NCBI GenBank assembly: GCA_011391695.1
Contig: JAABQB010000028.1
Span: 1 to 36,780, forward strand
From: Desulfobacteraceae bacterium
Lineage (GTDB): Bacteria; Desulfobacterota; Desulfobacteria; Desulfobacterales; RPRI01
DNA: 36,780 bases
Reading direction: 5' to 3'
This document shows, piece by piece, positions 4,298 to 32,094 of this stretch (its first letter is position 1; each line of letters begins with the position of its first letter). The notes beneath the pieces are model-generated. The model had not been told where the DNA came from and made no database searches. It was given only the letters and a program-made list of their open reading frames with translations. Made by a program: the position numbers and the translations under genes.

Positions 4298-4372
4298 AAC
4301 TTGAACCCTCGAATCCTTAAATCCTTGAATCCTTCTGTTAACTGTTCACTATTCACTTTTCACTATTCACTA
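4298..4372. repeat. Short-period repeat array, near duplicate of 3739-3803
   Basis: It reads CTTGAACCCTCGAATCC, ATCCTTGAATCCTTCTG, then TGTTCACTATTCAC units, in the same order and orientation as 3739-3803. The two copies bracket the broken ATPase as direct repeats about 560 bp apart. Confidence 0.75.
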
Positions 4373-4435
4373 CTTCATTTCATATCATTTTAAAACCAAT
4401 TAATTCAACATTTTTCTTAATATTTAGTCAGCAGA

Positions 4436-4532
4436 TCAGGGAACAGGGGTCAGGGTTCAGGAACAGAAGCTATCCACCAACGGCAACCGGTAACTGGCCG
4501 CTGACAACTGATAGCTGACAACTGATAATATC
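4436..4532. repeat. Further short-word repeats (CAGGG/CAGG and CTGACAACTGATA)
   Basis: The gap 4373-4613 has no gene. It contains GATCAGGGAACAGGGGTCAG followed by GGGTTCAGG, and GCTGACAACTGATA repeated twice (near 4500-4530). After these comes an A/T-rich stretch with the 10-bp palindrome GGTATATACC (near 4577-4586), preceded by TGT, that may hold the rfbB promoter. I cannot assign -35/-10 boxes with confidence. Confidence 0.5.
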
Positions 4533-4613
4533 CTGTCGGAAAAAAAGTTTTTAACTTCATGTAAATCAGAATATGTGGTATATACCCGAAAACTTGATTT
4601 ATGTTTTCTTTAA

Positions 4614-4666
4614 CAGACTGAAGGCTTTTAGTAATTTTAGCCTTCGGCCTTCAGTCTTCAGCCTAA
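4614..4666. repeat. GGCTGAAG-family palindromic element, copy A
   Basis: Left arm AGACTGAAGGCTTTTAGTAA, right arm GCCTTCAGTCTTCAGCCTAA, able to pair as a hairpin. It belongs to the family also found at about 8172-8250, 12139-12188, 16969-17028 and 18670-18743. Its right end (CCTAAGGA) supplies the AAGGA that precedes the rfbB start codon by 8 nt. Confidence 0.7.
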
Positions 4667-4676
4667 GGAATGATTC

Positions 4677-5735
4677 ATGAAAAATATACTTGTCACAGGC
4701 GGCTGCGGCTTCATCGGGTCAAATTTCATTCGTTATCTGTTAACTGAAACAGATTTCAACGGGCGCATCATAAACGTCGACAAACTCACTTATGCCGGAA
4801 ACCTTGAAAATCTTGCCGGAATCGAAGAAGCTTTCCCCGGCCGATATTATTTCAGCAGAAACGATATATGCAACCTTACAGAAATATCGGCAATATCCGA
4901 AATGTATGAAATTGACACCATATGCCATTTTGCGGCCGAGTCACACGTTGACCGTTCAATTGCAAAACCCTCAGATTTTATCCATGCGAACATTGTCGGC
5001 ACCTTCTGCCTCCTTGAACTTGCAAGGCTGCACAGCAACAGGATAGCCCTTTTTCACCATGTGAGCACAGATGAAGTTTTCGGCTCTCTCGGCAAGGCCG
5101 GATTCTTTACCGAAAATACACCATATAATCCAAGCAGCCCTTATTCGGCTTCAAAGGCCGCCGCAGATCATCTCGTCAGATCATACGCGATTACGTACGC
5201 CATTCCTGTGACAATCTCGAACTGTTCAAACAACTACGGACCTTACCAGTTTCCCGAAAAGCTGATCCCTCTCATGATTTTAAACGCCGTTGAAAACAAA
5301 CCTCTTCCGGTTTACGGTGAAGGCTCAAACGTCCGCGACTGGCTCTATGTAAAAGATCACTGCAAGGCAATATGGGAGATAATGAAAAAAGGCCGCCGGG
5401 GTGAAACATATAATATCGGAGGCGGGTGCGAAAAAGCGAATATCGACGTGGTCAGGATCATCTGCGACCTTGTTGACAAAATACTTCCCGGAACAAACGG
5501 AAACCCACGGAGAGATCTTATAACTTTTGTAAAAGACAGGCCCGGCCACGATTTCAGATATGCGATGGATTTCGGAAAGATGAAAAAAGAGCTGGGATGG
5601 ACACCTTCCGAAACATTTGAAACCGGAATCAAAGAGACAATATACTGGTATATTGAAAACCGGGAATGGGTGAAACGGGTAAAAAGCGGCGAGTATATGG
5701 AGTGGATGAAGCAGCAGTATGGAACCCGGCAATAA
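4677..5735 (+). CDS. rfbB: dTDP-glucose 4,6-dehydratase
   Basis: A 352-residue extended short-chain dehydratase. It converts dTDP-glucose to dTDP-4-keto-6-deoxyglucose, the precursor of dTDP-rhamnose and other deoxysugars of O-antigen or glycans. Seen: the NAD-binding GGCGFIGSNF (about 8-17), NVDKLTYAGN typical of RfbB, FAAESHVDRSI, the catalytic TDEVFG (131-136), SSPYSASKAAADH with Tyr156 and Lys160, NCSNNYGPYQFPEKLIPL and VYGEGSNVRDWLYVKDH. All family catalytic residues are in place and the length is normal. The usual partners rfbA, rfbC and rfbD are not adjacent; repeats lie on both sides, so the gene looks isolated. The start is supported by AAGGA 8 nt upstream. Confidence 0.95.
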   Translation: MKNILVTGGCGFIGSNFIRYLLTETDFNGRIINVDKLTYAGNLENLAGIEEAFPGRYYFSRNDICNLTEISAISEMYEIDTICHFAAESHVDRSIAKPSDFIHANIVGTFCLLELARLHSNRIALFHHVSTDEVFGSLGKAGFFTENTPYNPSSPYSASKAAADHLVRSYAITYAIPVTISNCSNNYGPYQFPEKLIPLMILNAVENKPLPVYGEGSNVRDWLYVKDHCKAIWEIMKKGRRGETYNIGGGCEKANIDVVRIICDLVDKILPGTNGNPRRDLITFVKDRPGHDFRYAMDFGKMKKELGWTPSETFETGIKETIYWYIENREWVKRVKSGEYMEWMKQQYGTRQ

Positions 5736-10559: not shown

Positions 10560-12110
10560 TTACAAGTTCAATAAGATTCCGATCTGGGCTGGGATTGATT
10601 TCAGAAGATCGGATGCGAGAAAACCGAAAGGCCCCATGTTTTGCGCAAGATCATCTCCTGCAGCTCCGTGAATGTAAACCCCGATTTGGGCAGCCTCCTC
10701 CGCCGGATATCCCTGGGCGATAAAACCGGCAATAATGCCCGTGAGAATGTCCCCCATGCCTCCTGACGCCATTCCAGAATTTCCGGTAGAATTAATAAAG
10801 ACTCTCCCGTCCGGATGCGCAATAACGGTCCCTGCGCCCTTGAGTACAAGATAAACATTAAATTCCCGGGCAAAATTCCGGGCACAGGCAACCCTGTTTT
10901 GCTGAACTTCTGCAATTTCAATTCCTGCAAGCCTGGACATTTCACCGGGATGCGGAGTCAAAACAGCCGGAATTTTAAGCTTTTTAAGCAAACGGGTTTC
11001 TCCTGCCAGCAGGTTTAAACCGTCCGCGTCAAGAACAACAGGGATTTTCAAACCACGAAGAATTTTCAGAACAAGCTCTTTTGTCGAAGGGTCAGTTCCA
11101 AGACCCGGACCCATGGCAAGACACTTCTTTCCGGCAAGATTATGCATTATGGCGTCAAATGACGATTCGGAAAGAAATCCCTCGCTGTTTTCAGGCAGAG
11201 GACATGTCATCGCTTCAAGAACCATCGATTCGATTACAGGGTTCAGGCTTTTTGGAACTCCGATAGTCACAAGGCCGGCCCCTGCCCTCATGGCCGCCGT
11301 TGCAGTCATTACAGCAGCACCGGTTTTTCCGGGCGAACCGGAAACTATAAAAAGATGGCCGGCGCTCCCCTTGTGTGCATCTTTGTCTCTCGGTTTAAGA
11401 TAAGAGCTTATTTTATCATTCGAAAAAAGATGCTGTTTAGGTGAAATTCTGTCGGCAATTAACGCCGGTATGCCTATATCGATGATTTCAATTTCACCCG
11501 AATAATCGGCGCCCGGATAAAGATAATGACCTGCCTTGGCATATCCAAAGGTTGCGGTTGCACGGGCACGGATGCACTCCCCTCGAACCTGGCCTGTATC
11601 CGAATCAATCCCGGAAGGAATGTCAACCGCCAGAACATGTTTTTTCAGGCCGTTAACAAAAATCATTATATCCTTAATATGCCCTCTGACATCTGATTTC
11701 AGACCAGTTCCGAATATTGCATCCACCCATATATCTCTGTGACGCATCGAAACCCGGTTGGAATTAAAGGTTTTACTGTCCGGTATTTCAATAACCGGAA
11801 TCCCAAGCGGATAAAGCATCTCAAGATTTGCCAAAGCATCACCCCTGACAAGTGAAGCCTTTGAAAGCAGATACACAATTACGTCAAACCCTTTCTGGAC
11901 AAGGCATCGCGCAATCACAAATCCATCGCCGCCATTATTCCCGCGGCCCGCTAAAATTCCGACCTTTTTCCCGGCAATGCCTGCAAATCTCCTGATTAAT
12001 GTTTGCGCAGCCCCCCTCCCAGCATTCTCCATGAGCATCCTTCCGGGAAGGCCAAGCTCGATGGTCGCCTTATCCATCACCCTCATCTCATCCGCTGTTA
12101 CGATGTACAT
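10560..12110 (-). CDS. nnr: Bifunctional NAD(P)H-hydrate epimerase / ADP-dependent dehydratase
   Basis: A 516-residue fusion that repairs damaged NAD(P)HX. The N-terminal NnrE half (about 1-215) epimerises the R form; seen are TADEMRVMDKATIE, AGRGNNGGDGFVIARCL and VDAIFGTGLKSDVRG followed by VDIPSGIDSDTGQ. The C-terminal NnrD half (about 225-516) is the ribokinase-like dehydratase, with AHKGSAGHLFIVSGSPGKTG, MGPGLGT, VLTPHPGEMSRL, LVLKGAGTVIA and the catalytic-loop NSGMASGGMGDILTGIIAG. The start is preceded by AGGAA 7 nt upstream, which lies in the GGTTTCTGG/CCAGGAACC repeat array. In relatives an acpS gene often sits between pdxJ and nnr; here only repeats are found there. Confidence 0.96.
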   Translation of the reverse strand: MYIVTADEMRVMDKATIELGLPGRMLMENAGRGAAQTLIRRFAGIAGKKVGILAGRGNNGGDGFVIARCLVQKGFDVIVYLLSKASLVRGDALANLEMLYPLGIPVIEIPDSKTFNSNRVSMRHRDIWVDAIFGTGLKSDVRGHIKDIMIFVNGLKKHVLAVDIPSGIDSDTGQVRGECIRARATATFGYAKAGHYLYPGADYSGEIEIIDIGIPALIADRISPKQHLFSNDKISSYLKPRDKDAHKGSAGHLFIVSGSPGKTGAAVMTATAAMRAGAGLVTIGVPKSLNPVIESMVLEAMTCPLPENSEGFLSESSFDAIMHNLAGKKCLAMGPGLGTDPSTKELVLKILRGLKIPVVLDADGLNLLAGETRLLKKLKIPAVLTPHPGEMSRLAGIEIAEVQQNRVACARNFAREFNVYLVLKGAGTVIAHPDGRVFINSTGNSGMASGGMGDILTGIIAGFIAQGYPAEEAAQIGVYIHGAAGDDLAQNMGPFGFLASDLLKSIPAQIGILLNL

Positions 12111-30842: not shown

Positions 30843-30896
30843 CCCTGCTCTTTTGCAGATAATCCCATTTTTTTAAATGTTTTATATATATTTTAG

Positions 30897-30925
30897 TTGA
30901 CAAAGTGTAAAGGCTTAATTATATT
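30897..30925 (+). promoter_or_regulatory. Sigma-70 promoter (TTGACA-17-TATATT)
   Basis: A perfect -35 box TTGACA (30897-30902), 17-bp spacer and -10 box TATATT (30920-30925). Start of transcription would be near 30932. It lies in A/T-rich DNA upstream of a terminator and the PxxKW gene. Confidence 0.7.
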
Positions 30926-30956
30926 GCGCCCCGCATAAAAAATTTGAAAGCTTCGG

Positions 30957-30995
30957 AAAAAGGCTTGGAGAATTTCTCAACCAGCCTTTTTTTTT
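30957..30995 (+). terminator. Rho-independent terminator or attenuator
   Basis: A stem with outer arms AAAGGCT (30959-30965) and AGCCTTT (30983-30989), an imperfect inner stem (GG/CC and AGA/TCT) and nine Ts (30987-30995). It is only about 60 nt after the promoter's predicted start, so it would end a short RNA or act as an attenuator ahead of the PxxKW gene. Confidence 0.65.
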
Positions 30996-31020
30996 AGTTT
31001 TATTACTATGAGAGCTTTGC

Positions 31021-31150
31021 AGAACGTTCAATTTTGCTCAAGTTCAAGGAAGGCGAAAATTTTAACCACAGGAATACTTTTAGTATTTCGAGGATGAAAA
31101 TTTGAGCCTGACGAAGAAATCGGGCAAAAGAGGTTGTTATGCAAAGGTCT
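31021..31150 (+). other. Structured non-coding element, copy 1 (upstream of PxxKW gene)
   Basis: A 130-bp segment that starts AGAACGTTCAATTTTGC and ends ATCGGGCAAAAGAGG...TTATGCAAAGGTCT. It contains a hairpin AATACT-TTT-AGTATT (31073-31087). Its two ends recur at 31602-31766 before fmdB. The gene it precedes begins 25 bp later. I see no convincing reading frame in it. It may be a cis-acting RNA leader; no known riboswitch class was recognised. Confidence 0.5.
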
Positions 31151-31174
31151 CACCCTGGAAAGGTGGTGAAAAGA

Positions 31175-31453
31175 ATGGTTTGTACAACAGTAAGAACAAA
31201 CAAGGAATGTCCATTCATGACAGCTAAAGGGTGTTCATACAACGGCGGAATCTGTCATGAGTTGATTGAAAAGTGCACGGGCTGCGGCCGCAGCACGGAA
31301 TATTCATCAGCCTGGTACTGCTCAACCTGTCCCGATCCGTCTTTGAAATGGAAAAACGGCAATTGCAACCTTGCAACGCATATCGTGGCAACTCCTGCTG
31401 AAGCAAAGGCTAAACTTAATCCTCTTAAAGCATCCAAACGGGGAAGCCGGTAA
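31175..31453 (+). CDS. PxxKW family cysteine-rich protein
   Basis: A 92-residue protein with eight or more Cys (CPFMTAKGCSYNGGICHELI; KCTGCGR; WYCSTCPDPSLKW; NCNLATH) and the PSLKW motif that names the family. The Cys pattern suggests bound iron-sulfur clusters or zinc. Members are known from Desulfobacterota as proteins of unknown function. I chose the ATG at 31175, which has AAAGGTGG about 9 nt upstream; an earlier in-frame ATG at 31139 lies inside the repeated element and lacks support. A strong terminator follows (31484-31514), so it is transcribed alone. Confidence 0.85.
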   Translation: MVCTTVRTNKECPFMTAKGCSYNGGICHELIEKCTGCGRSTEYSSAWYCSTCPDPSLKWKNGNCNLATHIVATPAEAKAKLNPLKASKRGSR

Positions 31454-31483
31454 CAGAGGTAACGCTGATGGGACACAACTTAT

Positions 31484-31514
31484 AACCCCGCTCATTTGTT
31501 TGAGCGGGGTTTTT
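31484..31514 (+). terminator. Strong rho-independent terminator after the PxxKW gene
   Basis: An 11-bp perfect stem, AACCCCGCTCA (31484-31494) with TGAGCGGGGTT (31501-31511), 6-nt loop and a T run (31510-31514). Confidence 0.88.
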
Positions 31515-31601
31515 GTGTTCTAAACGATTCTGATTCATCTTATAAAATTCCGTTTGCCCATAACCCCCTAACAATGATAGAAGACACCTTAAGACCCTTG
31601 A

Positions 31602-31766
31602 AGAACGTCCAATTTTGCTCAAAGTTCAAGGAAGGCGAAAACAAAGGCTTAGGTTCCTGGTTCACAGTCCCTGTTTTCTGGTTAAAAACAAGGAGCAACT
31701 ACAAACCAGAGACCAGAAACCAAGTCTTTAAATAAATCGGGCAAAAAGGGGCGTTATGCAAAGGTC
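31602..31766 (+). other. Structured element, copy 2, interrupted by a CCAGAAACC repeat (upstream of fmdB)
   Basis: The left end AGAACGTCCAATTTTGC...AAGGAAGGCGAAAA (31602-31641) and right end AAATCGGGCAAAA...GTTATGCAAAGGTCT (31733-31766) match copy 1. The middle is replaced by GGTTCCTGG, GGTT, and ACCAGAGACCAGAAACCA words, the same word family found before selA and nnr. The gap 31515-31863 has no gene; fmdB starts 98 bp downstream. Confidence 0.5.
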
Positions 31767-31863
31767 TTATAATAAGAACCTGTACGCTCCATCAGACAGG
31801 AGGCCGGTTGTGCCTGACCTCAATAATATAAGCTGTTATAACTAATAGTTACGGAGCCATAAA

Positions 31864-32094
31864 ATGCCAATTTACGAGTATCACTGTGATAAATGCAGCA
31901 ATGATTTTGAATCAATTGTGTTTGGAAAAGAAAAGCCCGTATGTCCTTCATGCAGGAGCAAAAAAGTCAGTAAACTCATGTCAGCATGCGGTTTTCTGAG
32001 CAAAGGAACCGGAGGAGAAACTGTAAGAACTTCAGCATCATCCTCATCATGCGGCGGATGTTCAGCCTCAAGCTGCGCGAGTTGCGGGCATTGA
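31864..32094 (+). CDS. FmdB family zinc-ribbon protein
   Basis: A 76-residue protein with the FmdB/regulatory zinc-ribbon start MPIYEYHCDKCSNDFES, CPSC at 27-30 of the ribbon (KPVCPSCRSKKVSKLMS), and a Ser/Gly/Cys-rich tail (SCGGCSASSCASCGH) that may bind metal. FmdB was named from formamide/acetamide amidase regulation, but the cellular role of most members is unknown. The TGA stop shares bases with the ATG of hemC (TGATG), which indicates translational coupling. CGGAG is 7 nt before the start. Confidence 0.92.
   Translation: MPIYEYHCDKCSNDFESIVFGKEKPVCPSCRSKKVSKLMSACGFLSKGTGGETVRTSASSSSCGGCSASSCASCGH

Follow-up and report, generated by a model that had tools for sequence, protein, structure and literature searches.

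The ERIC/IRU sequences of Enterobacteriaceae are imperfect palindromes of about 130 bp that fold end to end, lie between genes, are transcribed, and occur across related species. In Neisseria, the Correia/NEMIS elements are short inverted-repeat MITEs of high copy number, located mostly directly 5′ of genes and forming hairpins in the mRNA, and they can carry sigma70 promoters. Other described elements bear the ends of the IS5 family: ISNme1 of Neisseria is listed with the end GAGACCTTTGCAAAA, which is also found on BrickBuilt, a multicopy and noncoding MITE of P. gingivalis, and PMC4596501 places both in the IS5 family. Insertion sequences of the NCBIfam group NF033581 (IS5_4), as in the delta-proteobacterium NaphS2, encode a transposase.

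We analyzed a stretch of 36,780 nucleotides from a Desulfobacteraceae bacterium (contig JAABQB010000028.1 of assembly GCA_011391695.1; hereafter the window), in which a preliminary description had found one leader element before two genes and had proposed either a metal- or redox-responsive cis-regulatory RNA or a dispersed element. The shared leader element is almost certainly a MITE, that is, a short, noncoding, nonautonomous transposon. It resembles the ERIC/IRU sequences in its length, imperfect palindrome, end-to-end fold, intergenic position, predicted transcription, and occurrence across related species but is unrelated to them in sequence, and both target duplications and a related transposon have been shown for this MITE. 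With Correia/NEMIS it shares the short inverted-repeat form, the high copy number, the position mostly directly 5′ of genes, and a predicted mRNA hairpin, whereas the ends are unrelated and no sigma70 promoter was seen in it. BrickBuilt and ISNme1 have the same 12-bp terminal repeat, GAGACCTTTGCA (PMC4596501); the middle of BrickBuilt is, however, unrelated and contains 23-nt tandem repeats, whereas our element has one long hairpin on the sense strand, uniform 5-bp duplications, and a clustering at gene starts. The transposase-encoding IS5_4 insertion sequences also have the same terminal repeat, but only the ends are in common and the MITE contains no remnant of the coding region. Judged by these ends, which match those of IS5-family elements, it is probably an IS5-derived MITE; its position, its orientation, and a promoter lying 5′ of one copy place it among the transcribed MITEs, which are located in gene leaders and give hairpins in the mRNA, transcription being predicted here. 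The core of this explanation is ordinary, and the less ordinary features are the placement bias, a sense hairpin acting at the level of source copies, and a conserved truncated transposase. With this outcome, the two MITE insertions need not be mistaken for a novel metal-sensing RNA, and a MITE group with a terminal repeat present in many phyla is put on record.

Two copies in the window and the wider family

The two copies and their surroundings comprise the following features:

30897–30925, + strand: promoter of the PxxKW gene, TTGACA at 30897–30902, 17-bp spacer, TATATT at 30920–30925
30957–30995, + strand: terminator-like hairpin and T-run, candidate attenuator, outside the MITE
31005–31009, + strand: left 5-bp target site duplication of copy 1, decayed, ACTAT
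31010–31151, + strand: MITE copy 1, 142 bp, middle type A, within the 5′ leader of the PxxKW gene
31010–31040, + strand: left terminal inverted repeat of copy 1, GAGAGCTTTGCAGAACGTTCAATTTTGCTCA, pairing with the reverse complement of the right end
31121–31151, + strand: right terminal inverted repeat of copy 1, its reverse complement starting with GAGACCTTTGCATAAC
31152–31156, + strand: right target site duplication of copy 1, decayed, ACCCT
31159–31169, + strand: extended Shine–Dalgarno sequence of the PxxKW gene, AAAGGTGGTGA, conserved in all aligned relatives
31175–31453, + strand: gene for a PxxKW family cysteine-rich protein (DUF6811), ATG at 31175; PF20657 E 1e-35, NF038144 E 1e-32
31591–31768, + strand: MITE copy 2, 178 bp, middle type B, 5′ of the FmdB-type gene
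31864–32094, + strand: gene for an FmdB-family zinc ribbon protein, ATG at 31864; PF09723 E 1e-13, TIGR02605 E 1e-15

Copies 1 and 2 have their ends in common and differ in their middles, that of copy 2 being rich in GGTTCCTGGTT/AACCAGAAACC, and each middle is seen again in other copies of the genome. Direct repeats connect 31011–31041 with 31592–31622 (87%), 31040–31059 with 31622–31641 (100%), and 31114–31150 with 31731–31767 (86%), and TTATGCAAAGGTCT is present at both 31137–31150 and 31754–31767. These repeats bear out the earlier claim of two shared ends that include this sequence, with the limits revised to 31010–31151 and 31591–31768 as the element ends were set at GAGA...TCTC by alignment of the genome copies. 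The start codons follow 23 nt after the end of copy 1 and 95 nt after that of copy 2. Both downstream genes, identified by Pfam and NCBIfam profile matches, encode small Cys-rich proteins as previously described.

In the genome to which the window belongs (G000; 2.8 Mb, 98% complete), we found 29 near-full or contig-edge copies of type A, copy 1 included, the 28 others matching copy 1 at 84 to 94% identity with E values of 1e-31 to 1e-55. As copy 1 alone has this many relatives, its resemblance to copy 2 is far above chance. A second set matches copy 1 at its two ends only and consists mostly of type B, the remainder being fragments; there are about 9 type-B copies and a few fragments, and the type-B middle is palindromic like that of type A. 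One full copy aligns to the reverse strand of copy 1 over the entire length at 69%. The whole family has about 40 dispersed copies in G000, and its members are 142 to 178 bp long, have the ends GAGACCTTTG.../...CAAAGGTCTC with imperfect terminal inverted repeats of ~26 to 31 bp (GAGACCTTTGMAKAAC...), and lack an internal coding remnant.

Within the order, 22 of the 40 related genomes have the family, most of the genomes compared being draft assemblies, and it is present also in other families of the order with up to 94% identity, some relatives having hundreds of candidate copies. Contigs of public genomes contain the 16-mer GAGACCTTTGCATAAC in at least 118 stretches, in Desulfobacterota, Nitrospinota, Chloroflexi, Gammaproteobacteria, and others. 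Many of the stretches examined have an inverted partner 100 to 240 bp away, and the sequence at the right end of copy 1 is thus one that terminates short inverted-repeat elements in many phyla. Among viral contigs, the 16-mer gave only four single, unrelated matches, and a plasmid search with the doubled 16-mer gave zero. Two kinds of variation were also seen. One genome (G013, loci L072–L085) contains different palindromic MITEs of roughly 200 to 250 bp, with GAGACCTTTGCATAAC ends and GAGCTTTTTGGGG-type middles, and the window's own family is absent from it. Longer variants of the MITE, such as L090 (G001:C86, about 11760–11947), L091, and similar 166-bp copies, have short inserts with GCTTCACTTCGTGC, a smaller nested repeat, flanking the hairpin on one side or on both.

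Marks of transposition and candidate transposase partners

The ends of the element are imperfect inverted repeats, GAGACCTTTGAAGAAC... against the complement of ...GTTATGCAAAGGTCTC, and GAGACC...GGTCTC is common to the aligned copies. Among 30 copies, the 5-bp target duplication is exact in 11 and has at most one mismatch in 17, compared with 0.14 and 1.07 expected from cross-pairing of the flanks, and no other duplication length gave a comparable signal in these copies. The duplication of copy 1 has two mismatches between 31005–31009 and 31152–31156. The site upstream of the PxxKW gene is empty in four congeners (G001, G006, G008, and G009), whereas G000 and its relative G004 have it filled by a shared insertion, and copy 2 is missing from the orthologous FmdB spacer of G004 and G008. 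Given the 5-bp target duplications and the empty site, the copies are transposed insertions, and the dispersed element that had been offered as the alternative is confirmed by these marks and the copy number of about 40.

A 1,447-bp element of the delta-proteobacterium NaphS2 has the same ends (GAGACCTTTGCATAACC...) with a transposase gene inside, as has a 1,217-bp element of a Chloroflexota bacterium. Both transposases contain DUF772 and DDE_Tnp_1 and score 176.9 and 276.3 bits, respectively, with NF033581 (IS5_4), for which the NCBIfam cut-off is 140 bits, and a transposase related to them is present in G029, a genome with many MITE copies. We propose that the MITE would be mobilized in trans by such an IS5-type transposase of the IS5_4 group. 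In G000, no full-length cognate transposase was found, an N-terminal-half gene being the sole match, and since no complete partner was found there, the family may be inactive in this genome.

Two other sources of transposase were considered and rejected as partners: the PF01609 transposases of 14 genomes, none of which bears the ends, and a RAYT/Y1 transposase near a MITE copy (L027), which has its own GGGGACG-flanked ends and a single copy nearby. The RAYT-like Y1 gene lies about 128 nt 3′ of this MITE copy (G000:C35), with the flanks AAACAAATAGGGGACG and AACGTCCCTAA.

Sense hairpin and placement at gene starts

The sense strand folds end to end in 25 of 25 copies, with a mean MFE of −57.2 versus −40.3 for the antisense strand. 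The common variants keep the pairing in 354 of 398 cells and include G–U wobble intermediates on the sense strand as well as full exchanges such as A–U to U–A. Rare, copy-specific variants, in contrast, are found at 0.58 per paired column versus 0.62 per unpaired column, lose the pair in 49 of 58 cases, and lack strand bias (6 G–U, 7 A–C); the variant test used the fold of the consensus sequence, since the consensus structure that RNAalifold derived from all 84 copies was poor. As the common variants keep the pairs and the rare ones ignore pairing, we conclude that the hairpin, which is specific to the sense strand, is selected among the multiplying source copies and not at each insertion, where it afterward decays freely. 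The indifference of the rare substitutions to pairing also means that selection does not maintain the individual insertions as regulatory RNAs. At the insertion shared by G000 and G004, the one site examined, the MITE is 85.9% identical versus 94.9% for the adjoining leader with promoter and terminator.

To describe placement, we surveyed 87 copies from six genomes, with neighboring genes called by a simple script based on codon usage instead of a full gene finder. Between codirectional genes, 42 copies were in sense and 11 in antisense orientation (P = 2e-5), and the right end had a start codon or tRNA gene within 40 nt in 34 cases, the left end in 5 (P = 2e-6). When the right end points toward an opposing gene, the stop codon of that gene is often only a few nucleotides away. 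The ratio of sense to antisense is alike in young (25:7) and old (17:4) copies, and slow purging is therefore not the cause; the pattern may originate from an insertion preference or from immediate selection. Transposition alone would not be expected to give this placement at gene starts, and the G013 MITEs, whose ends are the same but whose middles differ, do not show it (0 of 15 within 40 nt of a gene start, a small sample); part of the bias could therefore reflect function. The preliminary description had taken copies scattered without relation to gene starts, and without covarying structure, as evidence against a regulatory RNA, an expectation that was partly borne out: the copies do keep to gene starts and their base pairs co-vary, but the covariation belongs to mobile source lineages and not to individual insertions.

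The neighboring genes, with names judged from translated N-termini, are functionally mixed and include tRNA genes, rpmI, and genes for acyl-CoA dehydrogenase, transketolase-like, CooC-like, and hypothetical proteins. With targets so mixed, the pairing with two Cys-rich genes in the window is a coincidence. At one locus (L010, G000:C32), a MITE copy is followed by an apparent cobalamin riboswitch, recognized by eye, and then by a gene starting MFKCLKFIIICIPLMFAGVCRAETATKEEKS; the same leader also holds an extra fragment of a MITE right end, GGGTGTTATGCAAAGATCTC.

The functional steps of the MITE explanation are all ones that we infer. As the PxxKW promoter is 5′ of the MITE, copy 1 would be transcribed within the PxxKW leader, and its RNA would fold into a long hairpin, with the leader terminator on its 5′ side and the ribosome-binding site on its 3′ side, tolerated there but not needed. 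The sense hairpin may have helped source copies to spread, probably by rendering insertion in a 5′ leader harmless: it would provide a structured spacer, prone to RNase III or processing, that leaves the Shine–Dalgarno sequence free, like Correia/NEMIS and ERIC. The sense placement just 5′ of the ribosome-binding site and the strand-specific hairpin make this a clean natural system for studying transposon survival in bacterial 5′ leaders.

It is possible, though on the whole unlikely, that MITE copies now serve as leader elements by co-option, with a sense hairpin that alters mRNA stability, processing, or translation at many genes and is selected there. The strong bias in orientation and distance, present in young and old copies alike and missing from other MITEs with the same ends, is consistent with such a role, as are the sense-only tolerance of G–U among common variants and the precedent of Correia and other transcribed MITEs (review PMC10969869). 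Yet the hairpin is without constraint in situ, the MITE evolves faster than its flanks at the single shared site examined, and the element contains no sigma70-like promoter above shuffled sequence; the bias of copies that are still young, moreover, fits an insertion preference or immediate filtering.

A half-transposase gene and the PxxKW leader

A query with the NaphS2 transposase found a gene of about 165 to 175 codons in G000, G001, G002, G004, and G008, which aligns only to residues 13–173 of the query; the G004 copy is cut by contig ends. The gene is syntenic in the five congeners and adjoins DUF167 and heptose-kinase genes (neighbor names from sequence). In G000 it is located as follows:

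G000:C70, about 4308–4808 (L276 1477–2001, − strand): half-transposase gene; orthologues L273, L274, L275, and L277

In the protein, DUF772 and the first Asp motif are retained, the later catalytic residues being gone, and pairwise dN/dS values of 0.08 to 0.21 at dS of 0.25 to 2 indicate purifying selection. Because the gene is constrained, it probably has a function; it is possibly a domesticated repeat-binding protein, and that it binds the MITE ends is our guess. Should it do so, it would constitute a domesticated-transposase system in bacteria. The synteny in five genomes, the kept DUF772, the lost catalytic residues, and the low dN/dS would suit a network of binding sites, in which the domesticated protein binds GAGACC ends in leaders as a transposition silencer or regulator, but we hold this to be improbable: the gene may serve something unrelated, the binding is hypothetical, and the gene is present in part of the genus only whereas the elements are wider. 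Slightly more improbable still is a full regulatory network of the MITE, with dozens of GAGACC-ended, codirectional copies at ribosome-binding sites bound by a catalytically dead, genus-conserved N-terminal transposase protein that would silence elements or tune genes.

The metal- or redox-responsive cis-regulatory RNA controlling small Cys-rich protein genes, for which two such genes in succession, a very stable sense hairpin in all 25 copies, co-varying pairs, and copies located at 5′ leaders could be quoted, is hardly credible and as a general account already refuted by the empty sites, given that the target duplications and the empty site are marks of transposition, that copies precede tRNAs and functionally unrelated genes with no coherent gene set, that copy-specific substitutions ignore a structure that is not conserved per site, that the copy at PxxKW is absent from most congeners, in which the gene, its promoter, and its ribosome-binding site are nonetheless retained, and that Rfam matched no family at the gathering threshold in the whole window and gave only chance-level matches at a loose E-value in 30850–31900.

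Outside the MITE, and a little 5′ of the coordinates given in the preliminary description, the leader hairpin at 30957–30995 is a conserved, probably cis-acting RNA feature and a better candidate than the MITE itself for cis-regulation of a Cys-rich gene. The strong PxxKW promoter is conserved in G001, G004, G006, G008, and G009 and widely across the order, and the hairpin is conserved across the genus with changing stem sequences. Together, 30897–30995 form a candidate attenuator of transcription for a gene that is nearly universal in Desulfobacterales. None of the papers searched names PxxKW, and the leader terminator makes the regulation of this uncharacterized gene testable. Within the last 160 nt of 34 PxxKW leaders (7 from the genus and 27 more from across the order), at least 18 have a comparable hairpin, 16 of the 18 behind a detected promoter, compared with a rate of 0.4% in shuffled sequences; in G000 and G004, the MITE shifts the leader hairpin beyond the 160 nt scanned.
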